From Mesostigma viride (lineage: Eukaryota; Streptophyta; Mesostigmatophyceae; Mesostigmatales; Mesostigmataceae): a DNA stretch of 64,000 nt. The DNA is taken from NCBI GenBank assembly GCA_009746045.1, contig RPFO01000645.1, positions 1,381,193-1,445,192 on the forward strand, written 5' to 3'. A program made the position numbers and the translations under genes. A model generated the notes under the pieces. That model was not told the origin of the DNA and made no database searches. It saw only the letters and a list, made by a program, of their open reading frames with translations. Below are positions 32,526-63,436 of the stretch, one piece after another (positions within the stretch are counted from its first letter, which is position 1; each line of letters opens with the position of its first letter).

Positions 32526-32953
32526 CAAAGGTTTTCACCTTTGCGGAGTGTCTGATCAGAATATACGCTTGGCTGATTTCGATAGTACCGGCTACGCCCC
32601 CTTCTAAAGAAGGATTCAGCCGTGTTCAGCCCGTCTCACGGTGCGAGACTGAACAAGTCTCGCGTGCAGACACGTGTGTAGTACTCCTACACACAGATCT
32701 CGAGTGATTTATCTAGTACCAAATCCGAAAGGCTTGCATCACTCCCCGGACAGGAGAACTTTTGCGGATGACTGTAGGTGTAAGTTGGCGATGCCATGGT
32801 AACCGGAGACGTCCGTCCTATAGTCAGCAAAATTGGTGCGAGAGGTCCCCAGTTCGATTCCGGTCGGATTCATTTGCAGATCGCGTTTTCCGCGTTTTCC
32901 GCGGCCCGGCACTGAACGCAAAGGTTTTCACCTTTGCGGAGTGTCTGATCAGA
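32526..32953 (+). mobile_element. SINE-like element, longer copy
   Basis: The 428-bp element is flanked by the 10-bp direct repeat AGATACTTAG (32516-32525 and 32954-32963). It contains a tRNA B-box-like AGTTCGATTCC near 32853. The same 33-bp sequence (AAAGGTTTTCACC ... GTCTGATCAG) appears at its start and its end. A shorter inverted copy is at 59172-59463. Short non-autonomous elements of this kind are mobilised by LINE machinery; the tRNA origin is my inference. Confidence 0.75.
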
Positions 32954-32963
32954 AGATACTTAG

Positions 32964-37834: not shown

Positions 37835-37877
37835 CAAACACAGCCATTTTCGATGAGTGTGGTGGGGTATTGCTATG
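37835..37877 (-). repeat. 43-bp inverted repeat, right arm
   Basis: Exact reverse complement of 32036-32078. The outer base is followed by CCAAGAACG, which does not match the left flank GGACTC, so no target duplication is evident. Confidence 0.85.
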
Positions 37878-37944
37878 CCAAGAACGCCCTAGAAACGACG
37901 GCCGGCGTAACTATTCCCTGAACGAGGACTGTACACTTAATTAC

Positions 37945-38934
37945 CTCGGGGAACTCGAAGAAGTTACGCCTGGTCGTTGTGGTCCCGCCCACCGCCCCCG
38001 ACGCCAGATTCTCCACCAACTGGGCGGCCGTCTGTTTGTCCTGGTTCTCTTCCCTGATGTGCCACCTCCTCAACATGCACTTCACAGTCCCACCAGCTCC
38101 ATCCACCTCCCCCTTTCCGTGCTGCTCCCCAAAGTAATTCCACTCAAATGACTCCAGGTGCGGATCCTCCGTCAGCAGCCGGGCCATTTCCGCGATCACA
38201 TTCCTTGACTTGAACTGCATGGAGCAATTGTCCGACCACCCAATGAAGCGCTTCACCTCTACCCCTTCTGACCGTAGTGTCGCCAGGATTTTGAGGATAG
38301 CAAAACGGAGGGCCCGCCCGTCCCTTTTCATTCCGCCCTGTCCGATGAAGTGAAACTCCCTTCTCACGACCTTTCCCGACGCTGGATCCAAGTAGCGCAC
38401 GATCCAGGGCATAAGGACGAATGTGACTGGATGCCAATACTGTGCTTGGAGATTGTGATAGGTGTAAGACTGGTAGTTCTCGGCGTAATCTGTGTGGCAT
38501 ACAAGGTCCCCCACCCGCATCCTTGAGAGACATTCCTTGGAGGCGTCCGCTTGCCACCACGCGTTGAAGCAATGCTGGATGAAGTCCGGCCACTTGTCCA
38601 CAATCGCCTCCTTTAGCTCCGTTGGTGTGGACTTGACGTCGACTTGCGTCAATCGCTGCCCACCAGCCTTTGCGATCTCGTCACAGTCGTCCTGCATATG
38701 CGCAATGTGCACATACAGAAAAGACATCAACTTCGACCCACCAATGACCTGTAGGAAGAAAAAAGACAGGACCTCAGGAAAAATTGAAAAAGAAACGCCT
38801 TGGGGCGCAACCACTCCACTAAAAATTACCTCTGGCCCAAGAACCTCAGGAAACATTGCAAAAGAAACGCCTTGGGGCGCAACCACTCCACTAAAAATTA
38901 CCTCTGGCCCAAGAACCGCACCCGGCGGCACATC
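37945..38934 (-). CDS. transposase DDE-core exons
   Basis: The minus-strand exon 38748-37945 (268 codons, phase 0 at both ends) contains VGDLVCHTDYAENYQSY, FIGWSDNCSMQFKSRNVI and FGEQHGKGEVDGAGGTVK. The spacing of the acidic residues fits a DDE/D transposase core. I know this signature from large uncharacterised eukaryotic transposase-like proteins but cannot name the superfamily. A short exon, 38934-38902, precedes it and ends GPE|GTAATT; the 153-bp intron contains a 72-bp tandem duplication. The donor GAG|GTAATTAAG at 37945 leads to the putative C-terminal exon at 31 kb. The exon is split at 38934 by the copia-like insertion. Confidence 0.65.
38830..38914. repeat. 72-bp tandem duplication spanning a splice donor
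   Basis: The stretch at about 38771-38842 is repeated at 38843-38914 with two or three changes. Each copy includes TTGGGCCAGAGGTAATTTTT on the minus strand, giving two alternative donors in the same frame. Confidence 0.9.
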
Positions 38935-39407
38935 AGTTAGAATGCGGTGGGATATATTGCTTGAGAACACTGAAGGCTTGGAGCAATGAATTGCTTCGTT
39001 CATTAGAAAATAGGTTTACCCTTTATCAACGTTCCTCTCACCGGCTGCGCCGCCAGTGACCGTTGGGTGCAGACCGTTGGCCCGAGGCCGCACGATGACA
39101 GGTAGCTGCCTAGTCACTGCATCGTGCGATCACAAATCAATGCACGCTGCAGTACGGTCCCTATCTAGGATACTCTAGTACCGTCCAATGACAGGACACT
39201 ACGTATACTGGGTACTGACATCTGTCACGTACCTCAGTACCCAAAGTACCTATCTAGGGAAACGTATGCGACTCGACTAGCATCCCTATCTGCATAGCCC
39301 ACGTGGTATTTATATTCACATACCAACGTGGGTTTACAAGGCTTATTCATACGTTGTATTCACAATGCCTTTGAGACTTAGTCTACAGCAAAGCATGGAG
39401 ACTAACT
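38935..39407 (-). repeat. copia-like element 1, 3' LTR
   Basis: 473 bp bounded by AGTTAG...CTAACT, a 6-bp terminal inverted repeat. It does not have the usual TG...CA ends. I see no strong polypurine tract at its inner edge. Confidence 0.95.
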
Positions 39408-39781
39408 CCAGTATTGTTTTATTATTTATTTCTTAATGCAGGTCTGCACCCCCAACATTATTGTTATTGTTTTTAAGTTGATTAGGGGTACAAAAGAGAC
39501 ATGGCTGGTTGAGCCAGGTTGGTTACAGCTGGCTGTTCTGGCCAGGTGTTATATTGCACATTAAATAAGGTGTACACAGCTGGCTGGTTTGGCCAGGTAC
39601 TGAAGCACACATTAAGTAAATGGATACAAAGCTTGTGTCCTCAAGCTGCAAATGGATACAAATCTGACCTAGCCAGCACTCACACCCCACAACGAATGTG
39701 TTGAATTTTATGGCGCCCAGCAGCTATCGCTGTGGTAAGGGGGTGTGGTGGTTGTGTACTGTGCTATGGCCAGTCATTTAT

Positions 39782-42700
39782 TCAAACACTGACTCTGATA
39801 TCATAGGGGTTCATGTTCTGAAAGAGGAGCTGGTACTGTTGGCCAGCAGCATCCCGCAGCTTCGTGAGAGCGTCTGCTGGGTTGTCCTCATCATCCACAT
39901 GAGTCCAGCTGGAAAAATAGGTGGCCTCCTGTTTGAGGATCACCCAATCCAAGTCAGTGTGGACAGCAGCAGAGACAGATTTCTTGGTTAGAAAACTGAT
40001 CACAGATTGGCTGTCAGTATAGAGATGTGAGATGACATTGCATGTGCTGCCTGCCTGGGTTTGTAGCCAGGTGAGCATGTGCTGCAGGGAACGAGCATGC
40101 AATGCAGCAGACACCACAGCACGACATTCAGCTGAGTTGCTGCTGCCAGGTTTTCTGCGGTGTAGCCTGCTGTACCAGGAAGTGAGGGACATGTAATCTG
40201 ACCTGTTGGTGAGAAAAAACAGCCCTGATTCCCGTGCCCCCATCTGATTGATTGTTCTGCTCTCCATGGAGCTGTCCATGACACATTGGATGTGGATGTC
40301 TTCCATCAGATTCAGGCCATGGAGGATGAGGGGGGGACAGTCATTGACCAACTTCCTGATGTGACTGCATTTGATCTTGACTAGAACATCATGGGTGACC
40401 CTGCTGATGACAGCTAAGGGAGCCCCACAGATGGCTGACCACCACCCCAGTTTGCCCTGAACAGTGGCACACATATGTAAGGGGAGGTAGTTGTCCTGCA
40501 GCAGATCTAGACAATCTTGGATATATTCTGCAGGAGGGGAGAGAGAGCAGACCCACTGATCTGGCTGCCTATGCAGCTGCAACATGATGCCACAGAACTG
40601 GATGGGGGTTGTGCTCAATTCCACCTGTTTGCCAATCTCATATGATTCCTGGACCTGCTGAATAAAGGTTTCCACCTCAGCTCTAGGCCCACAAATGAGT
40701 TGGTCATCTCCATGCCACACAAAGAACAGCAGTCCAGAGGGGGTGGGTACAACAAAAAAGCATGGGTCCAGGTCATCATACGTGGCCTTGAGCTTTTTGA
40801 ATACTTCCTCTGCTGAGTCTCTGAAAATTTTTGGGGCACTGACAAGCCCTTCCACCCCAATGTTGATGATAAGGTGGGGCTCATCAATATAAGGTTTCCA
40901 CACAGCTGGGGTGTCTACCACGTACACCTTCCCTTTCCACACAGATTCAGCCTTTTCTGGGTCCCCCCTGAGGAAGGCCCTTTTAATATCAGTGGCTTTG
41001 CAGACATAGTCTTGGCCTGCATTGAGGTTGTGGAGGAAGAGGGAGAGCATGATCCTGAGTGAGGTTTGTTGCAGCCCAGGTGTGTATGTTTCCCCTTTTG
41101 GCAGTGTGGAGGTCCCCTTTAATTCTGTGACACATGGTCTGGCATGGAAGATTGGGGAGCCCACTTTTTGTGGTTTTTGTTTGAGAACAAATTTTAATCT
41201 GAGCTTTTTGGCTCCCTCTGGCACGTCCCATGAAGGGGTGACAGGCGGTTTGTATTGAGGGTTTTTGGGGTTGGGCAGGACCCATTCCTGCCTGGCTTGG
41301 TGGACAATGGCCATCAGCCACTTGGTAAACCCTTTTTGTGTTTTGCATTCTTGTATGACGTGGGAGATTTGGTGGGGTGAGTGCATGGCTATGTCCCACT
41401 TACCCAGCCCAAAGGCTGAGGGATGGAGGAACTGGCTGTGCACTAACTTGTCCAGATCAGGGATCTCCCCTGGTGCATACTGAGTGTTGACTGCCTTGAT
41501 GACAGCATCCATACCAGGGACAATACTGGAGAGAGGGATTTTAAAGTGGTCCAGAGGAACTGCACCCACCCCTGTGACACTGAGCTCATTAGCTGAGATA
41601 AGCACCCCAGGATAGGATACAAAAGGTTCCCCCAACAAGGTGTTACCAGAGTACCCCTCCACCACCTGGAAGGGTGTCTGAATACCAAGTATAGGGAGCA
41701 TCACTTGTCCCACTACATCCAGTGAGCTTTGGCCTGAGAAATCCTGCACCCGTGCCCAAAATGAAGGTGCAATCTCAAGACCAGGGATGGCTTGTGCACT
41801 GATCACACTGACCTGTGCCTGAGTGTCTATTGCCAGGGTCCAGGGGTCCTGACTAGTGCACACAGCTGAGACTTTTGCCAACCCTGCGGCCACAGCAGCT
41901 TGTTGCTTATGTGACCTGTGTAATGCTTGCAAGGCGACTGCCAATCTTGACCTCAGAGCGGGAGGGTTGGCAGACAATTTGGTGCCTTGGGGCTGAGCTA
42001 ATGCTTCCAACCCAGCTACCTCGTGCCTGGTTAAGCAATCCCCAGGTTGTGAAGTGGGCCTGGCTTCACTGAGGGTGGAAGGGTTCACAGAGGGTGCTGT
42101 GGTGCTGTCAACAGCAGTAATTGGTGGCTCAGAGCTACTGCTGGGCATGCTGGAGTTGCCAGATAGAAGTAGTGAGTCCATGCTTAAAGACTCTTCCCCA
42201 GGCACGTCTGCCATGGGAGAATAATACTTCTTAATTCTATGACAGCTCACCCTGTGACGCTTCCCATTGATATTGTGCTTGACCTCCACGGTCTTGCTGT
42301 TTTTGGTAAATCCACGGATGGTAACTGGACCTAGCCAAGTTCCAACCTTACCAAAGCTGTTTTCCTTGTAATAGAGAACTTGATCACCTTTTTGGAATAC
42401 TGGCCTGGAATGGGTTTTATCTTTTTCTGCCAGTTTTGCTGAGGTTTGTGCACGTGCAGTGTTGTACAGTGCTATCACCTCTGGGGGATATACACCTGCC
42501 TGCAGGCCTGCTGGGATTACTTCACCCCACGTGGCATGCAAGACAGGTCTCATGTTTAGGGTTGTGCACATTTCATGACACCAGAGTGCCCTGTCACAAT
42601 AGACCCCTGAAGTAGCATCCTTGGAAGGATTTTTGGCTAGTAGGGTTTTGACAGATCTGATGGTTCTTTCAATGACCCCCTGACCCTCATGATCTTCCAG

Positions 42701-43440
42701 CCCAGCAATCTCTATTGCTTCACACCCTTCCAGGTCAGTCAGACAAGAAAATTGTTGATCAAGCAAAATTCTGTCAACTGGGTAGAATCTGGGTAAAGCA
42801 ATCATGAGTGCAACACGTAGCTGCCCTGCAGACATGCCAGGTAGGGGTTCCATTACTGTGAACCTGGACCATGAGTCTTTTAGGATCAGGTAGGGTTGGA
42901 CATCTTTGTTGATGTGCATCACATCCCCCACTATCATGCCCCTATTGGTGGAAGGAGTTGCAGTATGCCATTTTTGAGGTTTGGGGCTATTGAACTGACA
43001 TTCTTGACAGTGTTGTCTAGCCAGTTTTACTGCATTCCTGAGTTGTTTTCCCATGCTACTACCCCCCAGCCGTCTGGCCAGTTCCTCAGCCACTGTTTCA
43101 TGACCCATGGCTAGGTGCAGCTGATGAGCAAGCTCCTTGATATCTATGGAGTTGTCAACAGTAGGGGTTAGTGCTTTTATGTAAGGTTCCAGAACAGGGT
43201 GTTGGGAGGACAGTAAGGTTGCTGCCTCAAAATCAATTATGCCCTGGTTGCCATCCCCAATGGTAATGAGATCATCATCCTCAGAGTACATAAGGTGAGT
43301 GAACTCACATTGATTTGGGTAGCGAGGCCTGTTGCAACGGCTGCCTGGAGGCCCCAGGGGATGACGTGCGTGCCAGCAGCCCGGGCAGAGATCCACCCCG
43401 TTGGCCAGGGAGTCGTTGTTGGGGCAGTTGTGCCGTGCGT
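39782..43440 (-). CDS. copia-like Pol: integrase, retropepsin-like, RT, RNase H (element 1)
   Basis: From the first Met at 43396 there are 1204 codons; the frame is open upstream to a CCHC knuckle, CLRCFQRGHARHNC, near 43450. Domains by residue are: integrase zinc module with HLAMGH and CQEC (about 90-133); integrase core with GDVMH, LLDQQF and EGQGVIERTIRSVK (about 155-250); a C-terminal module with GDQVLYYKE and GPVTIRGF (about 335-390); retropepsin-like LAIDTQAQVSVIS to LLGEPF (about 519-600); RT with TDIKRAFLRGD (about 802) and the polymerase box FVWHGDDQL (about 893); and RNase H with MDSSME, SAECRA and YTDSQS, ending near the HVDDEDNPADALTK box. No protease lies in the usual place before integrase. 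HGDD replaces the usual YVDD. Confidence 0.9.
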
Positions 43441-46091
43441 GCCCTCGTTGGAAGCACCTCAGGCACCTTATGGACCCCCCAGGGTTGCCAGGCTGGTTGT
43501 TGTTGTGTTGTTGTTGTTGTTGTTTCCCTGCTGGGACCGGTTCTGGCCCTGCTGGGACCTGTTGTTGTTGTTGTTTTGGCCCTGTTGGGACCTGTTGTTA
43601 TTGTTGCCCTGCTGGGACCTGTTGTTGTTGTTGTTGTTGTTGTTGCCATGCAGGGGCACACGGTGCCACGTGTTGCCACGCCCCTGAGAGCCACTGCCCC
43701 CTTGGTGGGAGGACTTGTGGGTCTTGGGTGCCCCCCCTGGCTGGCCTGCCCCTTGCGTTTGTGGCCTTGGACACCCTGGACCTTGGGGTCCTGGGCCTGG
43801 TTGTTGCCAGTACCCAGGGGGTCCACTGCCTCCTCGATATAGAGCATGGCAGCTCTGAAGTTGTCCCAGAGGGACTTGAGGCCTGTAAGCAGGGTAGCCA
43901 GGACAGAAGGTTGCAAATTAGCTTTTGTTAGCCAGGTGTGGATGAGATACCTTGGTTGGAGCTTGAGAAGCTCAAGGTCTTTCTCAATCATTACCCTGTA
44001 TGTTTTTGCATCCCCAGAGAGGTTATTCTTGTTCACCTTATATGCAGCAAGCCAGTTGAAACGTTCTACTGCTTCCATGTGGTTATTGGTAAGCACTAGC
44101 TGTTTCAGATCAGTGATAAAGGTAGGCCACTGTTCAATGGCTGCTTCAGGTGTCAGGGTACGTTCCTGATAGGTTTGAATCAATGCTCTGATTGCAGGAG
44201 ATGATTGATGGAATGTGGAGGAGGCCCTGAGAGCCTTAAACTGATGTCTAAGGTTAAGACCTTCCATCCCATACTCCAAAGCAAAAACAAATTGCTTAGC
44301 TTGTTCAACAGTGTGACCCTCAGGCAAGCCAGCAATATTGATTTTGGATTCCTTTTTATGAGGGTTAAACACACCTGTGAGAGGGGGGTTGGCCCTCAAG
44401 AAGCTGTCGGTTGCTTGTTGCAGGCGGGTGGGGTCCAGGTTGATGGTCCCCCGCTCATACCGCGACATCAGGGCGCGCAGGCCCTCGACAGTTTGCAGCT
44501 GGTTAGCTGTTAACTGCTGATCTTGCAACGAGGCCAGCTGGGCCTGGAGAATGGCGAGCTGTTCCAGGACATCCCCGCTCCTTGGGGGGGCCTCAGCAGG
44601 CCTGTTGGGTGCCTGTGGCACCTCTGCACCTCCCCCCAGGGCCTCCTGGGGTCCTGGCCACCCCCCCTGGTTTGGGAGGGGGCCCCAACCCACAGGGCGA
44701 ACCTGGGGTGGTGGGGGAGGGGGAGGGGGGGTCATGGTGGCCCTGGGGGAGCCCGGGGGTGTCCGGGTAACCCCACTGGGTCCAGCCCCATCGGTGGAGG
44801 GGCGGGCAGGGGTGTCTGCCTCTGCTCTCCTCCTGGCCTCCTCCCGCATGAGACGCTTCATCTCCTTGCGTACCTCATGCTCCCGGAGGGCTGCCTGAAA
44901 AGCAGCCTCATCCTCGGGTATGTCAGGGAGTGGTTCTCCCATGATCATAGCAGGCCGGACTGGACAGTCCGCCTCTTTGCCCTTCCTCGCGCCCAGGGCC
45001 AGCAGTCCCTCCTTGTACTGCAGGGGTTGGGGGGGAGAGGGTTTCTTGCTGGTGGTTTCCAGCGGGGGGGCTTCTTCAGCTACCACCCCATGTTTGGCCA
45101 AGATGGCCTCCGTGACCCTGGCTTGGGTGATGGAGGACATGGTTTTAAAGTGTGCTGACCGAGCAAGCTCGGCCAGGTCTTGACTGTCCGCATAGTGCAT
45201 GGGATAGTCAGCATTTTTTAAGAGGTCACGTAACCGCTGGGTGGCCTCGCGGTACGCGTCCGCCATCGCCTGGTGGGTAGCCAGGCGACGGGCGGCTTCC
45301 TCTTCATATTCTTGCCGCTTAGCGGCGAGCCGAAAAGCCGCCTCTCGGCGGACCTCTCGGTCCCGCTGCCGCTCTCGGCGTTCTTCATTTGCCACCAGCG
45401 CGGCCTGCTCGACCGCCAGGAGCGCTGGGGTAAGATTGATCTCAGTCTCCCCATCGGGGAGACTGGCAGTGTCGGATACCTCATCGTCGGACATTGGTTG
45501 TCCGGCGATGGGTTCCACAGGTTTTCGCACCACCCGTGCGAGTTTAATACTCTCCATGTCCTTCTTCTTGCGAAGAAGGGACGCAGAGGGTCGCCCAAAC
45601 GTTAGCTCAATGTGGTTATGTCCCTGGGCGAAAGGGACATTAAGGTTTGATGTGGCGGGACGAAAGGTAATCGTCCCGTCCGGTGCCACCGAGGCCGTCT
45701 GACGGGGCATACGCTCCCGAAGAGATGGCAACGTGGGGCCGGACTGTGGAGCCTCAGTGGGGTTTACCACCGAGGTCTCCGCAGCCATGGCCGCGCCAGC
45801 CGTGGTTGCGGCTGGGGCGGCCGCCGGAGTCGAGGGTAAGCCGGTCTCCCCGGGGGGAGCCGTCTCGGCCTCCGGCCTCGCAGGGGAGGGGGGTAGGTCG
45901 GTCGGCTTTGCAGCCGCCGTCCCCTCGTCCTGGCAACCATTGTGAGTCTTTTTGTTCTTTTTCTTTTTCTTGGAAATGGCCGCATCGCCAGCCGGCTTCT
46001 TGTTGTTGTCTCTGGGCATCCGCCGATCCTGCCCATCATCATCCTCGTTGTAGGAAAGCTTCTTAGCGACATTCTTGTTCGTGATAGCCAT
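43305..46091 (-). CDS. copia-like Gag (element 1)
   Basis: The ORF has 928 codons starting 19 nt inside the 5' LTR. The N-terminal half is Pro/Ala/Thr-rich with a charged Arg/Glu-rich coiled-coil-like block (about residues 225-290). The helical capsid-like part is about residues 520-790. The natural nucleocapsid linker, Asn/Gln-rich with RSQQG repeats, is encoded in another frame at 43468-43659, after a G7 run near 43729. The CCHC knuckle is in the pol frame. The last roughly 140 codons of this ORF are therefore probably out of frame. Confidence 0.8.
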   Translation of the reverse strand: MAITNKNVAKKLSYNEDDDGQDRRMPRDNNKKPAGDAAISKKKKKNKKTHNGCQDEGTAAAKPTDLPPSPARPEAETAPPGETGLPSTPAAAPAATTAGAAMAAETSVVNPTEAPQSGPTLPSLRERMPRQTASVAPDGTITFRPATSNLNVPFAQGHNHIELTFGRPSASLLRKKKDMESIKLARVVRKPVEPIAGQPMSDDEVSDTASLPDGETEINLTPALLAVEQAALVANEERRERQRDREVRREAAFRLAAKRQEYEEEAARRLATHQAMADAYREATQRLRDLLKNADYPMHYADSQDLAELARSAHFKTMSSITQARVTEAILAKHGVVAEEAPPLETTSKKPSPPQPLQYKEGLLALGARKGKEADCPVRPAMIMGEPLPDIPEDEAAFQAALREHEVRKEMKRLMREEARRRAEADTPARPSTDGAGPSGVTRTPPGSPRATMTPPPPPPPPQVRPVGWGPLPNQGGWPGPQEALGGGAEVPQAPNRPAEAPPRSGDVLEQLAILQAQLASLQDQQLTANQLQTVEGLRALMSRYERGTINLDPTRLQQATDSFLRANPPLTGVFNPHKKESKINIAGLPEGHTVEQAKQFVFALEYGMEGLNLRHQFKALRASSTFHQSSPAIRALIQTYQERTLTPEAAIEQWPTFITDLKQLVLTNNHMEAVERFNWLAAYKVNKNNLSGDAKTYRVMIEKDLELLKLQPRYLIHTWLTKANLQPSVLATLLTGLKSLWDNFRAAMLYIEEAVDPLGTGNNQAQDPKVQGVQGHKRKGQASQGGHPRPTSPPTKGAVALRGVATRGTVCPCMATTTTTTTTGPSRATITTGPNRAKTTTTTGPSRARTGPSRETTTTTTQQQPAWQPWGVHKVPEVLPTRARTAQLPQQRLPGQRGGSLPGLLARTSSPGASRQPLQQASLPKSM
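43495..43660. repeat. (GTT)n/(AAC)n compound microsatellite at the gag-pol junction
   Basis: Several AAC runs alternate with a CGGTCCCAGCAGGG-type spacer. Changes in unit number here and in the adjacent G7 run shift the reading frame between gag and pol. Confidence 0.9.
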
Positions 46092-46109
46092 GGTAGCAAA
46101 TAAAATTCA

Positions 46110-46582
46110 AGTTAGAATGCGGTGGGATATATTGCTTGAGAACACTGAAGGCTTGGAGCAATGAATTGCTTGGTTCATTAGAAAATAGGTTTACCCTTTA
46201 TCAACGTTCCTCTCACCGGCTGCGCCGCCAGTGACCGTTGGGTGCAGACCGTTGGCCCGAGGCCGCACGATGACAGGTAGCTGCCTAGTCACTGCATCGT
46301 GCGATCACAAATCAATGCACGCTGCAGTACGGTCCCTATCTAGGATACTCTAGTACCGTCCAATGACAGGACACTACGTATACTGGGTACTGACATCTGT
46401 CACGTACCTCAGTACCCAAAGTACCTATCTAGGGAAACGTATGCGACTCGACTAGCATCCCTATCTGCATAGCCCACGTGGTATTTATATTCACATACCA
46501 ACGTGGGTTTACAAGGCTTATTCATACGTTGTATTCACAATGCCTTTGAGACTTAGTCTACAGCAAAGCATGGAGACTAACT
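46110..46582 (-). repeat. copia-like element 1, 5' LTR
   Basis: 473 bp, 472 identical to the 3' LTR. On the coding strand it is followed at once by TGAATTTTATTTGCTACC and the gag ATG, so leader and primer site together occupy only 18 nt. The TGGTATC motif of initiator tRNA-Met priming is absent. Confidence 0.95.
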
Positions 46583-46587
46583 ACATC

Positions 46588-50811: not shown

Positions 50812-52538
50812 TTAACACGTCGTCTGTAGCCACACCTATTTTTAGGACTGAGTTCAACTCAGTCCTAAATTTAGGACTGAGATTTGGGGTTTCGTAGAAA
50901 ATTTGCCCCGATCGGAAGGTTTGTCAAAAAAATTCCCTCAAAATTTATTCAAATACTACGTGAAAAGATCTTTCTTGGACATATTTTTGCGATTTTTTTG
51001 GATTTGGTATGAGCGGCTAAATGTACGGTCAAAGAACAGGTGGTAAGGGTACTTTTCCACGTGAAACGTGTGTTCCGGAAATGCACGACCTAGCCATGGC
51101 GGCTTGCGCCCATGCATGCAGTTTACGTTTTCCGACGATATAGCTGGCCAAACTCAGGAAATAGTTTTTATATACCATAGAGATGATACAAGTCAATTTT
51201 CAGCTCGCGGAAATGCGATTTACTAGGTGTCGGCACCGTTCTTGCTGGAAAAAGCTGCGATCAGGCAGGCCGACGGAATTGATTACTACAACTGCTTTCC
51301 GGCGCAAGTCAAAGGGTTTATAGGTTTCTTTCTACTTGTTATCATGCATGGTCATAGAATTGACTTAGTGGCAGTATAGATTTGATGATTTCGACCACTC
51401 TGTCACTTCATGGTGTGTGTGCCTCAAAGTTCCACTTTTGCGGGCACCGCCTGGGCCAAGGTAACGCCAGCCATGCAAGGTAAAGCCGGAATATCGTTGT
51501 CTCATCATTTCTTGATGTTCTTACATGAGTTTAAGCTTGCGAGGTGTTGCCAGTTTCGAGTCTTGATGCTCTTTCTTGACCGTTGCCTGCCCCTCTCCAA
51601 AACCCCCTTTTTAGATGATGTTGCCAGGCATTTGCCTTGCCCTGGTGTAGTTGTGCAGGTTTTTAGGCGCTGTATGGGTTTAAACACCTTCATAGATGTT
51701 AGTTGTTCTTTTGCTACGTTCATACTGCATAATTGTGTGGCCATGGGCCTCGTCAAGGGTGCTTTCAAGCTTATATGGGTGAGTGAAAGATCTTGGTGGT
51801 AAACCACTGTCATCATGTGCCAGCAAGTATGTTGGCCATGCCATGGCAAGGCAAAACAGTTTCATCCATGTCCATTCTTGTTAGAGACACTTGAAATATG
51901 CTTAACCTGCCCAATACATTGGTGGTTAACACACAAAAAAAAACCTTTTGTGGGTAGGTATCCAAACCCATTCCCTACGTGCTTGCATAGGCTCTCACAC
52001 ATTATAAGGTATAATATAACTGCAATATGATGATGCAAGCATGTTGTCCTATTATGCTGGAAGGGAAATGAGTTGATTGGCATGGTTGGTGGCCACGGTG
52101 GTGTGTAGTACGACCGCACTCCCATGCTAGCATTTTGTTACCAAGGCCCAGTCCTATTTATAGGACTGGCAGTGTTTTGCATGTTTCAGGCAGTGCCAGT
52201 GGCCGAATTGAGTCCAGTTTTTTTCCACAGTTCAAGAACTCTAATATCTACACGCCTATGATTTTTAATAGTGAATATGGATTTTATTGGATTTTACACA
52301 CTCGTGCTTCCACAGAAAATTCCAAAATCGCGAGTAAGGGTTGAGAGTCATGTATAATTTTACATGATTTGGTCAACATATGATTTTTTAAGCACATGCC
52401 CAAGCATTAGCATGATATTGAGTGCTATGATGCATATCAAATATATGGGGTACCCCCCTACCCTTACCGCCACATGATCTCAAAGATGGTATACTCAGTC
52501 CTATTTTTAGGACTGAGTTTCTACAGGGGACGTGTTAA
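50812..52538. mobile_element. TTAA-flanked non-autonomous element, family 1, copy A
   Basis: 1727 bp including TTAA at each end; the terminal inverted repeats are CACGTCGTCTGTAG and CACGTCCCCTGTAG. The interior is homologous throughout to 58104-60133. It contains four AGTCCT-N6-AGGACT hairpins (near 50835, 50861, 52150 and 52497), all with A/T-only spacers. ORFs inside (such as 51410-51802) lack motifs; I regard it as non-coding. Confidence 0.85.
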
Positions 52539-54120
52539 AGGATCATTGCGTAGTTCGCGCAATTTGGCTCTTTATATATGTTTTTGGAGACGACGAGCAA
52601 GCATCCGATTGGTCAGCCAATTCCTGTCCAGTCCTCGGACAGTGTCCAATCCGGTGCTTGGGATCCAGAAAACGTGCTCGAGCCTGGCCACTCTGTCGCG
52701 GGCGCCGCGCTAGTGGCGTCGCGCCCAAACCTGAGCAGGCCATAGGAAAGGGCGGGGGCGAATGCAAGAATTATTGTTATAACCTGACCTGTCCTGTGGA
52801 AGGTCCGGGGCGAATGCAAGAATTAATATACCTGCGTATGCAACCAACACGGCCGATCCACATACATAATCCGACTGAGCTGGACGGTACGGACCAAATT
52901 TCGGTGCAAATTGAGGCCCAAAAGCTATGTCGGCTGATTTAATGGCGGTGACTGCGTTTAGACGAAACGCGACAAATCTGGCACGCGGAAAGCAGAAAAA
53001 ATGCTCGATTGTTGGTGAAAATTAGTTACTGGTTCTAATTTATGGCGGGATGGTTGCGATCTATAATGTCGCGGGCTTTTTTTCTTTGCCATCGGCAGGG
53101 GGGTCCGGCCTGAATTTCTGTCGGGATGAATAAAGTATAATGGATGCCTGCCGGGTTGATTGTCGATTGTTGCCAGTTTTGATGGTCGTAAGGAAAGCTA
53201 GTTTAATGATGTTTCTAAAGCCGTAAAAATTCCCGCTGCTATCTTTACCTTTCCCGTCATTTTGCGGTAAGATAACATTAGCCCTGCGCGATGCGTACTG
53301 CCCAACCACTCCATGAAAGGGTGGACTTTCTTGTGCGCCTGGGCACGAATAAATGCCCGTTATGGTACGTTCTTGTGTTAAACGTCTTAAGCTAGCGTTT
53401 TCCTGCTTTCTTAGCTCGTTGAGCGTAAGCTTTTTGCCTTCTTTCCAGCCAGATGCAGCCAGAAAGTTGCGGGTCCTGGCGCTGCATCGCTGGATTCCTG
53501 GGTGTCTTTTAGCTAGTTAATTGTCTGTGACGTGGCTGGCTTTCTGCAGCGCGTGGCCCGCAACCTGTCGGGAAGGTGTAATGCTTTTATTTCCATGCTT
53601 CTCTGAAATTTCTTTTGCTTTATAGACAGTTGTGTTCGAGGAAATTCACGCGGTCTTCCTAAGCAGCGGCATCATTTTCCCCAGACACTGACGAGCTGGC
53701 ACCTGTCTCCTAAAGAGAGCGGCTCGTGCTTGTTAGAAAGGAGGCAGTGTGCATTTTGCGGGACACAATGCTTTGGTGGCACATGCGTCAGGTAGGCTGT
53801 TCCAATGGTCTCTTCACCTTTCCCACTGAGTAAATGTTAGCATTTGTCATGCTAACCAGAGCAGCTAGCCACAGGTTGGCTGGATAAAAAGTCAGCTTAT
53901 TTTCTCTTTATATACTGCGTGTGTGGTCCTCCACGTGTCCGGCTTGTTGGGCATTTTGGAAGAGGGTTTATAATGTGTTGTTGGGTGGAACAACTTGGTT
54001 GTTGGCACAAAATCACACATTATTAGCCTGAGATAGGCATGACATATGCTGCTCAGGCGTGTCGTCCTACCAGCCTTGTTGTTAAGGGTAGACTCACAAG
54101 GCTGGCTGTGCCGATGGAGG
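52539..54120. other. no gene recognised
   Basis: A short direct repeat (GGGGCGAATGCAAGAATTA) occurs near 52756 and 52809. Otherwise there is nothing I can support. Confidence 0.4.
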
Positions 54121-54128
54121 GGTGGGGC

Positions 54129-54635
54129 GTGCTAGCCCCCCCCACACCCACGCATGCATGCTAGCCCACCCCCACACCCACGCATGCATGCTAGCCCCGG
54201 CCCCGGCCCCCCCACACCCACGCATGCATGCTAGCCCCCCCCACACCCACGCATGCATGCTAGCCCACACTCACACCCACGCATGCATGCTAGCCCACCC
54301 CCACACCCACGCATGCATGCTAGCCCCCCCCACACCCACGCATGCATGCCAGCCCCCCCACACACCCACGCATGCATGACAGCCCCCCACACACCCACGC
54401 ATGCATGCTAGCCCCCCACACACACCCACGCATGCATGCCAGCCCCCATACACACCCACGCATGCATGCCAGCCCCCCCCACACTTACGCATGCATGCTA
54501 GCCCCCCACACACACCCACGCATGCATGCCAGCCCCCCCACACACCCACGCATGCAGGCTAGCCCACCCCCACACCCACGCATGCATGCCAGCCCACCCC
54601 CACACCCACGCGTGCATGCCAGCCCACCCCTAGCT
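54129..54635. repeat. minisatellite, about 28-bp unit containing GCATGCATGC
   Basis: About 17 units of CCCCCACACCCACGCATGCATGC(T/C)AG vary slightly in C-run length. ORFs on both strands are repeat artefacts. Confidence 0.95.
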
Positions 54636-54894
54636 TGAGCGTGCTTGTAAAGTTTTTGCATGGTTTATTAAAATGAGTGGAATATGTATTTATTGCATTA
54701 AATGTTAATTTTATCATGAATGAAAATGGTCAACATTGCCGAAGTGCCCCTAAATTGCTCAATATTGTGTGCTCAAGAATTCAACGAGGATTGTCATCAT
54801 GGAAACCCGCACAAATTCACGATTCCGGGCATGCATGTGAAAGTATCAAGAACAATTTTCAATTAAGAATGGTATCTCATTGTTCCATGAATCA

Positions 54895-55945
54895 ATATGA
54901 CTCCATGTACGTAGACAAGCCATGATGACCCCATGGGAGCCTGAATCCTCATCATTAAATACATAAATGCCACCCATGTACGTAGACGGGCCATGATGAC
55001 ACCAATGGAGCCTGAATCCTCATCATTAATTACATAAATGCCAACCATGTACATACACGGGCAATGATGACACCATGGGAGCCTGAATCCTCATCATTAA
55101 TTACATAAATGCCAACCATGTACGTAGGCCAGCCATGATGACACTATGGGAGCCTGAATCCTCATCATTAATTACATAAATGCCAACCATGTACGTAGAC
55201 AAGCCATGATGACACCATGGGAGCCTGAATCCTCATCATTTTTTTTATGAGACATCCATGTACGTAGGCCAGCCATGATGACACCATGGGAGCCTGAATC
55301 CTCATCATTTTTTTAATGAGACATCCATGTACGTAGGCCAGCCATGATGACACCATGGGAGCCTGAATCCTCATCAATTTTTTTTCTTTGACATCCATGT
55401 ACGTAGACGGGCCATGGAGACACCATGGGAGCCTGAATCCTCATCATTTACTATTCCTTGACATCCATGTACGTAGACGGGCCATGATGACACCATGGGA
55501 GCCTGAATCCTCATCATTTTTTTTTCTTTGACATCCATGTACATACGTAGGCCAGCCATGATGACACCAATGGAGCCTGAATCCTCATCATTAATTACAT
55601 ACATGCCATCCATGTACGTAGACAGGCCATGACATCTGACACCATGGGAGCCTGAATCCTCATCATTTACTATTCCTTGACATCCATGTACGTAGGCGGG
55701 CCATGATGACACCATGGGAGCCTGAATCCTCATCATTTTTTTTCTTTGACATCCATGTACATACGTAGGCCAGCCATGATGACACCAATGGAGCCTGAAT
55801 CCTCATCATTAATTACATGTACATGCCATCCATGTACGTAGACGGGCCATGATGACACCAATGGAGCCTGAATCCTCATCATTAATTACATAAATGCCAA
55901 CCATGTACATACACGGGCAATGATGACACCATGGGAGCCTGAATC
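54895..55945. repeat. about 70-bp satellite with two alternating linkers
   Basis: Around 15 units share a core (CCATGTACGTAGACGGGCC ... GGGAGCCTGAATCCTCATCA). They differ in linker: AATTACATAAATGCCAA-type or T-run followed by CTTTGACAT-type. Several units carry an extra CATA next to the ACGTA. Confidence 0.93.
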
Positions 55946-57817
55946 CTTGCTGAGCTTCGCTCATTTTATATATGACGCGTGGACGGGCTCAAAGGGGACC
56001 GACCTGCCGTAGGTAGCGTAAGACTAGCGCTTGTCACGAGGGTACTGCACCGGCCGGCCCTTTTTGTGCCTAGGCGGAGTGTGGTTCCGGAGTGCAGGCC
56101 TAGGTAGCTTCTAACGTACGTCACTAGACCTTGTTACCTGCGCCAGCCGCCAGGCGTGGCGCAACTGTGATTGGCAGTCAGTACACCTTGTACCTGCGCC
56201 AGCCGGCAGGCCTGCGTGGCGCAATGTGAATGATGGTCAGTACTTAGAGTGGTGTAGGGGACGTAGGGAGGCCTCTTTTCAGCTTCGCAACTTGATCCCA
56301 GCATTTGCTGGCAAGGTCGGCTGGCCGCTATGGCGGCTGCGCTGAATGTAAGACGATGCTATCAGTTAACGTTCTTATCACACGCAATGTGAAGGATATG
56401 GTTGCAATGCAGCAATGAGTGAATATGGTTGGAAACGGAGCTTTGTTAAAATTGGATAATGTTACAGCGCTCACACACTTGAGGCTTGTACACGCGTTTG
56501 CCAAGTCAAGGCACAACACGTGAGGCGGGCTCGCAAGAGATGCCCAATTGGCACTAGCCCTATTGTTTATATACTTGTGCACTGTGCTTGCTAGTCCTGA
56601 GCAGCCTACATAGAAGGCCTGCTCAGTAATAACACCCACGGTACAGTATTCACTACCTGTACAGCGCCTAGCTCCTATACAGTAGGTCTGCCATACAGGC
56701 ACAGTGACCACAGAGCACAGTCCACAGTGACTATTGCATCTGCACCTAGAAGCCAGGACTAAGCCTGCGGTACCAACAGACCACAGGTTAAGGTTCCTAT
56801 TTCCTGCGTACGACGTATTAATCCAATACCGTCGTAGGTACAGCACCTAATTCCTGTCGGCCCAGGAATTACTGTCGACCCCATATGTCGTCGGCAAATA
56901 TTCACGTCCGACTTAGAAGAACAGCCGGCTCGCGCTCGCGCGCGACCGGGAAGTCGGAACGCCATAACTTTCTTGATACTTGTCGGAATGAACTCGTTCC
57001 GGTGCCGCTGGAATCGCAGAGATATGCCGAATCAGGATCACGCCAATGCGCTTGGCGTTAACTCCAATCCTTTCTTTTCTTGAGCTGTAGCAGCTCACAC
57101 AAGTCTACATACAAACACACACAATGGGTACTGGACATCCTCCCCAGTGTCCAGACTACAAGTCACAACCCGCTGGGCATGACAGTCAGCTTGGATTCCT
57201 TATTATATGTACATAGCACCCATACTGGCTCAGGAGCACAAACAAATTACAATGAGTCCCTATCCCTTCACGGGAGGCTCGTTGTGTTACCCATGTACAA
57301 GAGGTTGGCCAACTGTGGCAGCCCATAGGTGTTCAGCTAAGAACTTGAGAAGTATGTACAACCTTCAGGACCTTAGGCGAAACCCCACAGATCACCCACA
57401 ACAGCTCATCAGAAAACATTGCTGACCCCCAGACGGGAGTCGGCGCCGGTCTGCTGCCCCTTATCGAACCAGACACAACATCTACGCGAAGCACATGCAA
57501 ACACAAGCTCCCATACTCGTTCCAACCGTGGAAAATCAGGGGACCTGTCGCCACCTCACCAGCATGGTGGATGGGTCAGCCAGTCCGTGAAACTCCGCCT
57601 TAAGACGGCACCAGGGAATCGAACCCCGCCCACAAACCACAGATCTGGGGAAACCTCAGACTGAGATGAAAACCCCAGATAGACATCTCTCCATCAGAGA
57701 CAATGTCAGACATTCCCACACCAGAGACATGTCTCACCCCTCAAGGTGTGCTCAGGATTATGTACAATCAAGCTCCCAGCCTGATATCCAGAGACTTAAG
57801 CACCCAGCTCTCAGCTT
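55946..57817 (-). other. 3' flank of copia-like element 2, probably including its 3' LTR
   Basis: The pol frame of element 2 stops at 57818, so its 3' LTR should lie in this interval on the minus strand. I could not define the ends because the 5' LTR is outside the window. A GCGCCAGCCG(C/G)CAGGC repeat occurs near 56140-56220. No other gene is recognised. Confidence 0.4.
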
Positions 57818-58103
57818 TTAGACAGATAGACCGACTTGACAGTCAGCATTCATGAGCTTCCTCAGTACATTGTACTGGGCTGGGGCCTTGTGTGGCAGCT
57901 TTGTCAATGCATCAGCAGGGTTCTCCTCGCCAGGGATATGCTTCAAGTCAACCAAACTGGCCAACTCCTTCAGCAACAAATAATCCAGGTCCCGGCTTCT
58001 GGCCAGCTGCTTGTGAACAAACTTGTGACCATACCCATGCTGTCTGTTAGCAACAACGTCTCCATCTGCAAGGTCCAAGGGGTAACTGAAGCCAGCTCCA
58101 GCA
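57818..58103 (-). pseudogene. copia-like element 2, displaced RNase H 3' end
   Basis: The minus strand carries LLLTDS in one frame just after the TTAA. It then reads RSRDLDYLLLKELASLV and HIPGEENPADALTKL in a second frame, ending with a stop at 57818. The HIPGEENPADALTK box corresponds to HVDDEDNPADALTK of element 1. One frame change lies between LLLTDS and the later part, so this copy is damaged apart from the insertion. Confidence 0.8.
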
Positions 58104-60133
58104 TTAACTCGTCGTCTGTCCCTGGTCCTCTACGGAGGACTGAGTTGAACTCAGTCCTCTCTAGAGGACCGAGTTTTTGGGTTTCGTAGAAAATTCGCCC
58201 CGGTCAGAATGTTTGACAAAAATTTTCTCTCAAAATTTATTCAAATACTACGTGAAAAGATCTTTCTTGGACATATTTTTGGGATTTTTTTGGATTTGGT
58301 ATGCGCGGCTAACTGTACGGTCTAAGTACAGGTGGTAAGGGTACTTTTCCACGTGAAACGCGAGTTCCGGAAATGCACGACCTAGCCATGGCGGCTCGCG
58401 CCCATGCATGCAGTTTACGTTTGCGGACGAGTTAGCCGTCCAAACTCAGTAAATAGATTTAACATGCCCTAAAGATGATATAAATCAATTTTTAGCTCGC
58501 GGGGATGCGATTTACCCGGTGTCGGCGCTGTTCTTGCTGGAAAAAACTGCGATAAGGCAGGTCGACGGAATTGATGACTGCGCTTGCTTTCCGGCGCAAT
58601 TTCAATGGCTGATAGGTTTCTTTCTACATTTTAACATGAATTGTATTAGAATATATTGAGTGACAGTATAGATTTGATGATCTCGACCATTCTGTCACGT
58701 CATGGTCTATGTGCCGCAAAGTGCCACTTTTGCGGGCACCGCCTGGGCCAAGGTAACGCCAGCCGTGCCAGGTAAAGCCGGATAATCGTTGCCTCTTCGT
58801 TCCTTGATGTTCGTACATGAGTTTAAGCTTGCGAGGCGTTGTCAGGTTCAAGTCTTGATGCTCTTTCTTGACCGTTGCCTGCCCCTCTCTAAAACCCCCT
58901 TTTCAGATGATGTTAGCAGGCATTTGCCTTAACCCAGTGTAGTTGTGCAGGGTTTTAGGAGCTGTGCAGGTTTAAACACCTTCATAGATGTTAGTTATTC
59001 TTTTGCTACGTTCATACTGCATGATTGTGTGGCCACGGGCTGCGTCAAGGGTGCATTCAAGCTTTTACGGGTGAGTGAAAAGTCTTGGTGACAAACCACT
59101 GCCATCATGTGCCAGCAACTATGTTGGCCACATCATGGCAAGGCAAAACAGTTATAGCCATATCTATTGTTCTGATCAGACACTCCGCAAAGGTGAAAAC
59201 CTTTGCGTTCAGTGCCGGGCCGCGGAAAACGCGGAAAACGCGATCTGCAAATGAATCCGACCGGAATCGAACTGGGGACCTCTCGCACCAATTTTGCTGA
59301 CTATAGGACGGACGTCTCCGGTTACCATGGCATCGCCAACTTACACCTACAGTCATCCGCAAAAGTTCTCCTGTCCGGGGAGTGATGCAAGCCTTTCGGA
59401 TTTGGTACTAGATAAATCACTCGAGATCTGTGTGTAGGAGTACTACACACGTGTCTGCACGCGATATCTATTGTTGTTTGAAACAATGGAAATATGCTTA
59501 ACCTACCCATTATATTGGTGGTTGGCACTTATAACATAACCCTTTGTTGGTAGGTATCCAAGCCCATTCCCTACATGCATGCATAGGCTCTCACTACATG
59601 ATAAGGTATGATATACCTGAAGTATGATGATGCAAGTGTGTTGTCCTGTAATGCTTGAAGGGAAATGAGTTGATTGGGATGGTTGGTGGCCACGGTGATG
59701 TAGTATGACCGCACTTACATGCTAGCAAAGTTAGCAAAAGCCCCATTCCTCTCCTGAGGACTGAGAGTTTTTTAATTGTTTCAGGCAGTTGCAGTGGCCA
59801 AATGGAGCCCAGTTTTTTGCCACGCTTCAAGAACTATGTTGTTTACGTGCCTATATTTTTTCTTCATGCACCAGGATTTGATTGAATTTTTCCCACTCGT
59901 TCTTATCCCGAAAAATGCAAATTCGCGAGGGGCGCCCAACGTCCGTGTAATTTTCAGGTGTTCGGGTCAAGTTTTCACATATGCAGTATTTTTGCCAACA
60001 AAATGATATCTAGTACACCCCAGATCCACATCAAAACATTTGGGATGGACCCCCCACCTAGTCGCTACACGCGGTTGAAAATTGTCAACTCAGTCCTCCT
60101 GTGAGGACTGAGTTGGGACAGACGACGAGTTAA
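58104..60133. mobile_element. TTAA-flanked non-autonomous element, family 1, copy B
   Basis: 2030 bp including TTAA at each end; the perfect 15-bp terminal inverted repeat is CTCGTCGTCTGTCCC. Its interior matches copy A. The four AGTCCT-N6-AGGACT-type hairpins lie near 58125, 58153, 59746 and 60092, with spacers such as CTCTAG and CCTGTG. Most of the extra length relative to copy A comes from the SINE-like insertion at 59172. It interrupts the RNase H of copia-like element 2. Confidence 0.9.
59172..59463 (-). mobile_element. SINE-like element, 5'-truncated copy
   Basis: 292 bp, the reverse complement of the 3' part of 32526-32953. It is flanked by the 12-bp direct repeat ATATCTATTGTT (59160-59171 and 59464-59475). 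Loss of the 5' end with an intact 3' end (GTCTGATCAG) fits target-primed reverse transcription. Confidence 0.88.
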
Positions 60134-63100
60134 CTCCTTTATGTACAGGCTGGACTGGATCCCCTCACATATGGCCCTGCATTCTGCCACATCTGAACTG
60201 ATACAGACCCTCTTCTGCAGTCTGCTGTACCAGCTGAACAAACTTGCCCTGCTCTGATAAAAAGCAAACAGAGCAGCAGATCTCCCCCTGACCTTGGTAA
60301 CCTGGCGAGCATCCATGGAACTGTCAACAAAGATCTCCAAGGTGATAGGCTGGGCAAAGTCAATCCCAGACAAAATCAGATCAGGGGTACTCTCCACCAA
60401 CCGGGCTATGACTCGAGGCTTCTCATCCTCAAGCACCTCATCAGGCATTCTGCTATGGACCATCAAAGACGGACCACAGATGCTGGCAAACCAGGCCCAC
60501 ATGCCTCTCAACTCAGGTCCTGCAGCCTGGGTGATCTTCTCTGGCAAGGCCTTCACAATGGTCTGTTTATAATCTCCTCCAGCCTGAAGCCTGATACTCC
60601 ACTCCCCGTCCCTCCTGAACAGGGTAGCCTGCATTCCACAGAACACTACAGGCTTGTTGGGCTCCTGCCACAGCTCCTTGCCCAGTGAAAACTTGCCACT
60701 GATGACAGGAATAAACTTCTTCAGCCAGGTCGTGGGGGCTAGCAAATGCAGATCATCTCCATGCAAACTAGCATACACTGGCAGACCCTCCCATTGGGCC
60801 AGCAGCAAACAGGGATCAACTGAAGACACTCTCAAGCCACACTCACTGATCAGAGCTTCCTGCAGCGTGAGTCTCCAGATGATTGGGCTCGACCTGAGTC
60901 CTTCCAGGCCCTTCAGAATAACCAGGAATTGTTGATGCAGCTCCAGCTTCCAGATGGCAGGCACCTCAACACAGTAAGGCTCATCCTGCTTCCACACCCT
61001 CCTGGCCACTTCTGGATCAGATTTTAAAAATGCCCTCTTGAAGTCCAGCAGCACTGATGACATAGCTGCTCCCCTGTTCAGCAACCCCACGTAGAGACAT
61101 AGCAAAATTCTCCATGTGTCGTGTAGCATCCCTGGCGTGTATAGCTCCTCTCCTGGCAGACTCCCCGTGCCGTGATACTCATTCAGGACAGGCCTGACAT
61201 GGGGCACTGATACCTCATCCACAACCTTCCTCTTCAGCACAAATCTCAAAGCAAGCTTCCTTGATGCTGGGGGACGTCTGTCTGTTGGTGCAGCACACTC
61301 AAACTGCAACCACTCCTCCAATGCCTTGGAGAAGGCGAGCTTCCAAGCCTCAAACAAAGTAGGCGAGCTCATCTCTTGGACCAGCTGGTCATATGTCAAA
61401 GGAGAGTGTGCAGCAAGGCTCCTGTGAGTTATGCCAATACTGCTGGGGTGCAACACAGCTGGAATCACCAAACTGGCCGCTGGGGGCACCTCCCCTTCAT
61501 CCCATTTTACACCCTTGACCGGCTTGGCCCTGCACCTGACTGGAAATGTTGTCCTGAAATTTTCTAGGGGAATCATCCCCCAGCCATCTCTTCTCAGAGC
61601 TGTAGCTCTGATAGAAATCCCAGGATTGCCCAGAAAATTCTGACCCAAAATCACAGGGCCATCATAGTCCTCTAGGACAAGGAAGGTCACATCCACACCC
61701 ATGACAGGGGCAGTAACCTCTCCCAACACCCTTAGATGCGTCCTACCACTGAAATCAGACACCCAGGGGCAACTTGGTTCTCCGACCAGCAGTTCTCCTG
61801 TATGCTGAGGTCCCATGACAGAAACCTGTGCATTGGTATCTATCTCCATGGCAGCTACCTCAGGTTCATCCAACTGGACAAGCTTGGACACCTTAGGCTC
61901 CTTCTTGGCTCTTTGCAAAGCCTGTACAATATCTGATAGACGCACACCCCTAGGCCTGGTGTCGGGCCGTTCCGGAGGTGCAGCCTGTCCGCCTGCTTGC
62001 CCAACCACCGTATGTGAAGGTACCCCAGGGGCCGGGCCAGGGTCACCCTGAGGGCTCGATACAGCTGTAGCACCCTGATCAGGAAGCTCCACGTCACCCC
62101 CGCCTTGTACACCAGCGGGCACCTGGAAGAGGTCTCCTTGATTACCTCCCCGGGGACGGATCTTTGACCAGGACAGACGGTGCACTGCTTGGGAGCCATC
62201 AATGGCCACCCAGCACTTATGGCCAGCGGCTTCTACTCGGGTCACCACCCCATCATGCCAGCTGCCACGTTTCCCTGGAAAGCTTGGTTCCTTCCACACA
62301 ACAACCTGTTGTCCAACGTTAGGTTCTAGGACACTCCAGCCCTTGTCTTTCTGCCTCAGCTTGAGGAACTTGGCCTCTAGCTTCTCCTTCCATGCCTGCT
62401 CAGCATCAGCTGGCAGCATCCTGGTATGCAGCATAAGAGGATTGATGGCAATGTCACCAAAGAACATGGGAGTCCTCAGGTTCAGCCTGTCCTCCACAGA
62501 ACGTAGCCATGCAGATGTCACAATGGCAGATGACGTCCTTGGAATCCTCTCCACCAGCAGCACAGTCTTGATCTCTTGGATGGCTCTCTCCACCACCCCT
62601 TGCTGGCCGTGGCTCTCCCTGGGTGTAATCAGCAACTCTGGAAACTCTGGCAGGTTCTCACAGCACTCAAACTGAATGTCACACTGCAACAACTCCAACC
62701 CAGGGTACCTGCTCCTTGTCAACTTCAGAGCAGCAATCAATGTAGGCTTCTCCATGTCAGGCAGGATCTCTAGGGTCTTGTACTTGGTATATCTGTCCAC
62801 TGCCACCAGCAGCTTCAAACCCCTGATTCTCTGAATATCTACCTGCACATGGCCTGGCTGCAAAATAGGAGTCCTGGCATGAGACTGCTTGGGCTTTCTA
62901 GCAACTAGCCTGCACTTGCAAGCTTGAGCAACCTGTTGGCAGATGGAGTACAACTCACTTCCTCCCAGCCGTCTAGCAACTTGCAAAGACTGAGCTGCAT
63001 GGCCAAACATGGTATGCAACCTTGAGGCAATGTCATACAAGAGAGAAAACCTTTTATTGTCATTATTAGCACTCAAGGTATGTACAGATCCCTTATGTAC

Positions 63101-63436
63101 AGGAGGCACCAGGGTCGTGCCTGTCAGACTGTCTCCAGCCCTATCCTCATCCTGACCATCCTGTGCCAGTCCTGCACGGTCAGAATGCTTCTGAGATCCA
63201 CCTGGGTCCACATCACCAGGTCCTACCTCAGGCTCAGCACCGCCATGGCGGGCACGTTGGCGAGTAACCACTGCAGCTACAGCTGGCATACTCTCTGTGG
63301 TAACCAAGCTTGCCCCATCGTGTCCAATAGGCTCTTTCACTAGAGCATGGGGCTGCCCCTCACTGCTGTCACTAGCAGCTTCATTACACACCCCTGGGGG
63401 CACCCTCCAGGGTTCAGGGATGTGTGCAGGCTCAAG
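60134..63436 (-). CDS. copia-like Pol: integrase, retropepsin-like, RT, partial RNase H (element 2)
   Basis: The frame is open from the gag TGA at 63437 and is the same frame as gag. Counting from the GTG at 63403, the domains are: integrase zinc module with HTMFGH and ACKC (about 130-165); integrase core with VQVDIQ, LLQCDIQF and GVVERAIQEIK (about 188-280); C-terminal module with GQQVVVWKE (about 364); retropepsin-like AMEIDTNAQVSVMG to VILGQNFLGNPG (about 518-595); RT with LLDFKRAFLKSD and the box YASLHGDDLHLL (about 900); and RNase H with FVDSSMD and DVAECRAI. It is broken at the TTAA insertion after YIKEL. The Asp-to-Glu integrase triad is intact. Confidence 0.9.

Follow-up and report, generated by a model that had tools for sequence, protein, structure and literature searches.

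The order of domains is a main criterion for sorting LTR retroelements. In Ty1/copia elements that order is GAG-PROT-INT-RT-RH, as given in the accessible text of PMC6317226. Two elements in the window analyzed here, a stretch of 64,000 nucleotides from Mesostigma viride, appear to be copia-like and to carry a retropepsin-like domain behind the integrase (IN) and ahead of the reverse transcriptase (RT). The locus raises the question of whether this order belongs to a genuine group of elements, and whether the middle domain, as we call it, is their protease (PR).

Domain order in two elements

Element A is a complete LTR retrotransposon of 7648 bp on the minus strand (38935-46582). The 5′ LTR (46110-46582) and the 3′ LTR (38935-39407), each 473 bp with the ends AGTTAG...CTAACT, are identical, and the flanking bases carry a 5-bp target-site duplication, ACATC (38930-38934 on the left and 46583-46587 on the right); A is thus a young insertion. 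The gag ORF (43305-46091, 928 amino acids) has no Pfam match and is in a different frame from pol. The pol ORF encodes 1271 amino acids from stop to stop (39782-43597; the original prediction had given 39782-43396). It contains a CCHC zinc knuckle (residues 45-58, 43424-43465), an integrase with a zinc module, a D225/D280/E310 core and a C-terminal module (42230-43135), the retropepsin-like domain (residues about 575-685, 41543-41875), an RT core with the motif WHGDD (residues about 797-971, 40685-41209), and RNase H (RH; about residues 1105-1263, 39809-40285), all on the minus strand. A 380 amino acid ORF without a Pfam match (37873-39015) extends into the 3′ LTR.

Element B, also on the minus strand, is interrupted and its 5′ end lies outside the window (56364-64000). 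Its 3′ LTR (56364-56449) aligns over 86 of 87 bp, with 95% identity, to the LTR of another copy, L021, and the two copies are 99.97% identical across 3871 bases. The 87-bp LTRs of L021 are mutually identical, with no matching target duplication in the flanks around them; the LTR ends of B are TTAACA...TTAACTC. The gag frame contains a CCHC zinc knuckle (63545-63586), and an in-frame TGA followed by CTT (TGA at 63437-63439) separates it from a pol ORF of 1123 amino acids (60065-63436). This ORF encodes an integrase (D200/D253/E283, 62153-63034), the retropepsin-like domain (61541-61885) and an RT core with the motif LHGDD (60734-61261). Its end at 60065 is not natural: a 2.0-kb insertion (58111-60129), flanked by a 7-bp duplication of B sequence, splits the RNase H and shortens the ORF, and other B copies encode a Pol of 1196 amino acids.

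Several other repeats occur in the window. A copy of the insertion in B, 79-87% similar, is found at 50812-52334. Nested in the same insertion is one member of an identical inverted pair of 295 bp (59170-59464 and 32660-32954), a short young repeat. There are tandem repeat arrays at 54106-54660 and 54903-55947, whose units measure about 30 and 70 bases.

The Pols of A and B are colinear across integrase, middle domain, RT and RNase H, with 319 of 1077 positions identical (30%, BLASTP E=1e-122). From the N-terminus to the C-terminus, both have the integrase zinc module, the D,D,E core, the C-terminal module, an I-D-T-x-A-Q-V-S-V motif, RT, and RNase H. The integrases share an H-H-C-C module and three acidic residues, the last two of which are spaced by 29 residues. 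In both elements the middle domain is confirmed to lie where it had been placed, after the integrase C-terminal module and before RT. Its I-D-T-[QN]-A-Q-V-S-V motif falls at residue 591 in A (D591, codon 41825-41827) and residue 533 in B (D533, codon 61838-61840), and reads DTQA and DTNA, respectively, not D(T/S)GA.

Recurrence and relationships in the genome

Further families were taken from 17 stretches adjoining the window or near copies of A in the genome of 440 Mb. In family C (L026/L027, motif DTMA) the integrase, protease-like domain and RT share one frame of 966 amino acids, with RNase H in another. Family D (L029 plus L020, and L036; DTNS) has integrase and protease-like domain in one ORF and RT-RH in a second ORF past an insertion, and in family F (L033, DTQA) frameshifts separate the knuckle and integrase from the protease-like domain, RT and RNase H. 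Family E (L031, DTNA) is a fragment with integrase and then the motif. The order IN-PR-RT-RH was found in five families (A, B, C, D, and F), which are 30-70% identical over the domains compared. Because the families that share it are diverged, the order is not that of one rearranged copy, as had been argued from two families, and its recurrence in three further families of the same genome exceeds chance.

Identities for IN, PR and RT are 51, 68, and 70% between A and F, 50, 50, and 66% between B and D, 42, 47, and 46% between A and C, and 30, 34, and 43% between B and C, so A-F and B-D are the closest pairs by all three domains. In some pairs the conservation of the protease-like domain is about equal to that of RT; in others it is lower. 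For 7 of 10 pairs its dN/dS (NG86) falls in the range 0.13-0.37, with dS near saturation; for the remaining 3, dS is not estimable. The conservation of the middle domain across families indicates selection.

A genome search found A at no fewer than 37 places (98-100% identical) and B at a minimum of 41, and no stop interrupts any of these matches. The open frame of B is 1196 amino acids long in 36 of these, 1145 in 4, and 1123 in the window copy. The first 20 of the 37 A places were read, and in every one the pol frame encodes both DTQA and the CCHC knuckle; among the 18 with a readable 3′ LTR end, L008 and L009 have a common flank and the others differ. The peptide pattern D[IF]KRAFL, an RT motif of the group, occurs with any codons at 3,259 places in the genome (reversed-pattern control, 0), a count that may include places outside the lineage. 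Restricted to CGN codons for the arginine, which are absent from the motif in A and B, the pattern occurs at 178 places (control, 0). The pattern I-D-T-x-A-Q-V-[ST] with alanine encoded by GCC, GCG or GCT has 73 places genome-wide (reversed-pattern control, 0), leaving out families with a GCA alanine, A and B included. No relatives were found in prokaryote genome contigs, IMG/VR, phages, or plasmids, collections that contain hardly any eukaryote DNA and are silent on the spread among eukaryotes.

The same genome encodes a canonical copia element (L030, 888-5428) with Retrotran_gag_2, Pol_BBD (75-151, E=6.6e-14), gag_pre-integrs (176-222, weak), rve (257-356, E=7.5e-9), SH3_retrovirus (417-484), and RVT_2 (747-987, E=9.6e-51) in this order. 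It has the same type of RT-RH as the new families and differs from them in its order, Gag-PR-IN-RT-RH, and in its Pol_BBD-type protease, which has DSAA in place of DSGA. Positions 1-5211 of the window and the end of L025 hold a Ty3/gypsy element whose domains follow the usual order, Gag, PR, RT, RH, and IN. An RT-RH profile of the five families matched the canonical copia RT-RH (97%, E=3.4e-11, 395 columns), with none of 100 shuffles as good, and gave no signal against the RT-RH of the gypsy element in the window (38 of 100 shuffles equally good). By these profiles the RT-RH is clearly copia-type; the Pfam RVT_2 match of A (E=1.2e-4) falls short of the cut-off. The integrase profile of families A-D had no match to the canonical copia integrase (26 of 100 shuffles as good) and a weak one to the gypsy integrase of the window (E=0.0018, 0 of 100 shuffles), over 74 columns in the zinc-core part. 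With one template of each kind compared, this hints at a mosaic origin, in which a copia-type RT-RH would be combined with a gypsy-like integrase. In a FastTree tree of 7 RT sequences (C as RT without RNase H), the canonical copia and gypsy elements group together (0.997), and A, B, C, D, and F stand apart.

The new families resemble Ty1/copia in their copia-type RT-RH, the integrase before RT, the CCHC knuckle, the LTRs, and the 5-bp target duplication of A. They differ in the position of the retropepsin-like domain, after and not before the integrase, in its active-site motif, DT[QNM][AS], and in an integrase profile that does not match the canonical copia integrase of the genome. Copia LTR ends are usually TG...CA, whereas those of A are AG...CT and those of B are also not TG...CA. 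Likeness to Ty3/gypsy is found in the weak match of the integrase zinc core and in a [LI][LI]G..F motif of the protease-like domain that appears gypsy-like by eye; in contrast, the RT-RH has no gypsy signal, the integrase precedes RT and does not follow RNase H, and the order PR-RT-RH-IN was not found. Troyka has likewise been proposed, from structure and phylogeny, as a separate LTR retroelement lineage, with an RT near Gypsy and not Copia (PMC12440569, accessible text).

The original prediction of an undescribed copia lineage stands as regards the copia-type RT-RH and the separation from the canonical copia of the genome; its term "undescribed" reaches as far as the open-access literature. 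There we found no description of an order with the protease between integrase and RT (including the accessible text of PMC3248453, PMC2836005, PMC6317226, PMC2774666, PMC8515867, PMC12440569, and PMC2194720), and no order strings such as IN-PR-RT. The copia-like group with a protease-like domain between integrase and RT seems to be an undescribed lineage. The relocation of the domain is well supported, as are its conservation and the copia type of the RT.

Identity of the middle domain

In all six families the active-site motif of the middle domain reads DTQA, DTNA, DTNS or DTMA: the D and T are kept, and the glycine of D(T/S)G is missing. At the 73 genomic places above, the variable residue is Gln in 45, Asn in 27, Thr in 1, and Gly in 0. 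In the five aligned families DT[QNM][AS].VS and the downstream [LI][LI]G..F are invariant or nearly so, the latter being a hydrophobic-hydrophobic-Gly motif near the C-terminus (LLGEPF, ILGQNF and relatives, with LIGNPF in C).

A profile search for a retropepsin had been proposed as a refutation test, and at the sensitivity of Pfam its outcome formally goes against a retropepsin: no protease model reached the cut-off for the middle domain, with nothing for A and no protease for C, and the lone protease match was that of B to gag-asp_proteas, at E=0.25 and 12.4 bits where the cut-off is 28.2. The profile of the domain matched neither the gypsy protease (32 of 300 column shuffles score equally well) nor the canonical copia protease (107 of 300) significantly. 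In a non-significant profile alignment of 86 columns with two gypsy proteases, the IDT and the later LG motif are in register. Sequence searches of the PDB gave no relevant match and one chance match. AlphaFold models, from an alignment of A and B only, had a pLDDT of 33, then 42 for a trimmed version. With the latter model, the best 50 of 366 Foldseek matches in the PDB (E up to 10) were all HIV-1 protease (E 0.13-0.47, TM 0.20-0.23), a protein heavily represented in that database. In BFVD the top of 259 matches was a herpesvirus membrane protein, and among the best 50 HIV proteins ranked 5, 8, 9, 11, and 19.

Upstream of the integrase, we found no protease in families A-D by Pfam and a motif scan of Gag and linker. 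As the original prediction had noted for D(T/S)GA in A and B, the stretch from the knuckle to the integrase zinc module has no D[TS][GAQNM][ASTC] string in A, B or C; it has one in D. The only such strings in Gag and linker of A-D are SDTASLPDG (A gag) and GDSGSESEQ (D linker), both in acidic low-complexity surroundings, and the same scan recovers DSAA in the copia control. Pfam identified zinc knuckles and no protease in the Gags of B and D, only weak matches to other families in the Gag of C, and no protease in the linkers of B and D.

We read the middle domain as a relocated, atypical retropepsin. The conserved motif pair, the register in non-significant profile alignments, and the fold-search ranking of a low-confidence model make this the likeliest reading, and a working enzyme the likeliest prediction. 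It is unlikely that the domain folds as a retropepsin yet has no catalytic activity and is kept for dimerization or binding, with Gag-Pol cut by a host protease or by none. Such a loss of function would fit the replacement of the glycine by Gln, Asn, Met or, in one genomic match, Thr wherever the site was seen, as well as the lack of another protease in Gag or linkers of A-D; against it, the Asp and Thr are kept across the families compared while other positions vary. The canonical copia of the genome, with DSAA, also lacks the glycine, so this absence extends beyond the new lineage and is no reliable sign of a dead enzyme.

We regard it as improbable that the domain is beta-rich but unrelated to retropepsins, with a DT.A..S motif that came to look like theirs by convergence. 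The elements would then be left without any protease. In addition, the 86-column alignment places the two landmark motifs in register with those of the gypsy protease, and the second model has HIV-1 proteases as all of the best 50 of its 366 matches in the PDB; the lack of a significant sequence or profile match to any retropepsin, and the low confidence of the structure models, speak for convergence. Hardly any credence can be given to A and B being rearranged, chimeric or misassembled copies whose order is not ancestral. Plant surveys do treat unexpected orders as mispredictions (PMC6317226, accessible text), but here at least 37 A and at least 41 B places are near-identical and have no stop inside the match, A copies have differing flanks, the diverged families C, D, and F share the order, and A-F and B-D are the closest pairs in IN, PR, and RT alike. 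We consider it probable that the elements form an expanded copia-type lineage in which Gag is followed by integrase, the retropepsin-like domain, RT, and RNase H, and in which the retropepsin-like domain substitutes for the protease usually found ahead of integrase.

Expression and maturation of Gag-Pol

In families B (L021, L022, L027, L031 and the window copy), C (one copy), and D (L029 and L036), a single TGA, in frame and with C as the next base, separates the knuckle from Pol; it is found at 63437-63439 in the window and at L027:5630-5632, L027:1244-1246, and L036:7390-7392 in other copies. Gag and Pol are open on either side of it in copies of B and C, both in L027, and of D in L036; the Gag frame of B in L021 is broken. 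Stop-codon readthrough is a likely role for this TGA. No consistent signal of RNA structure was found 3′ of it (6, 98, and 148 of 200 shuffles folded equally well for B, C, and D, respectively), and neither an Rfam scan nor a tRNA scan yielded a match in the window. We take Tca2 of Candida albicans to be of copia type. Like families B, C, and D, it has a UGA that separates gag and pol, with a potential pseudoknot at the junction (PMC2194720, accessible text).

Element A has no TGA between knuckle and Pol, and its gag-pol frame relation varies. A programmed +1 frameshift was rejected as a conserved trait of A: scored by one gag marker peptide, pol is offset from gag by +1 in 13 of 20 copies and by +2 in 3, and shares its frame in 4. 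These near-identical copies (L001-L020) differ in frame because of a CAA-rich repeat between gag and pol.

The B, C, and D families would make Pol by readthrough of one UGA past the Gag zinc knuckle. If the middle domain is the aspartic protease of the element, it would dimerize in Gag-Pol within the particle and excise itself, freeing Gag and integrase on its N-terminal side and RT-RH on its C-terminal side. The integrase would remain joined to Gag until the N-terminal cut of the protease. More tentatively, and with rather more doubt than belief, the families might represent a superfamily-level branch of LTR retroelements with thousands of copies, combining a copia-type RT-RH with an integrase and retropepsin of gypsy-like descent, the order IN-PR-RT-RH, a glycine-free active site, and UGA readthrough.

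Surveys throw out unexpected domain orders as mispredictions, according to the accessible text of PMC6317226. The many intact copies with another order found here mean that such filters can hide real groups. Since the protease would have the integrase, joined to Gag, on its N-terminal side, the lineage would allow the constraint that polyprotein order places on particle maturation to be tested.
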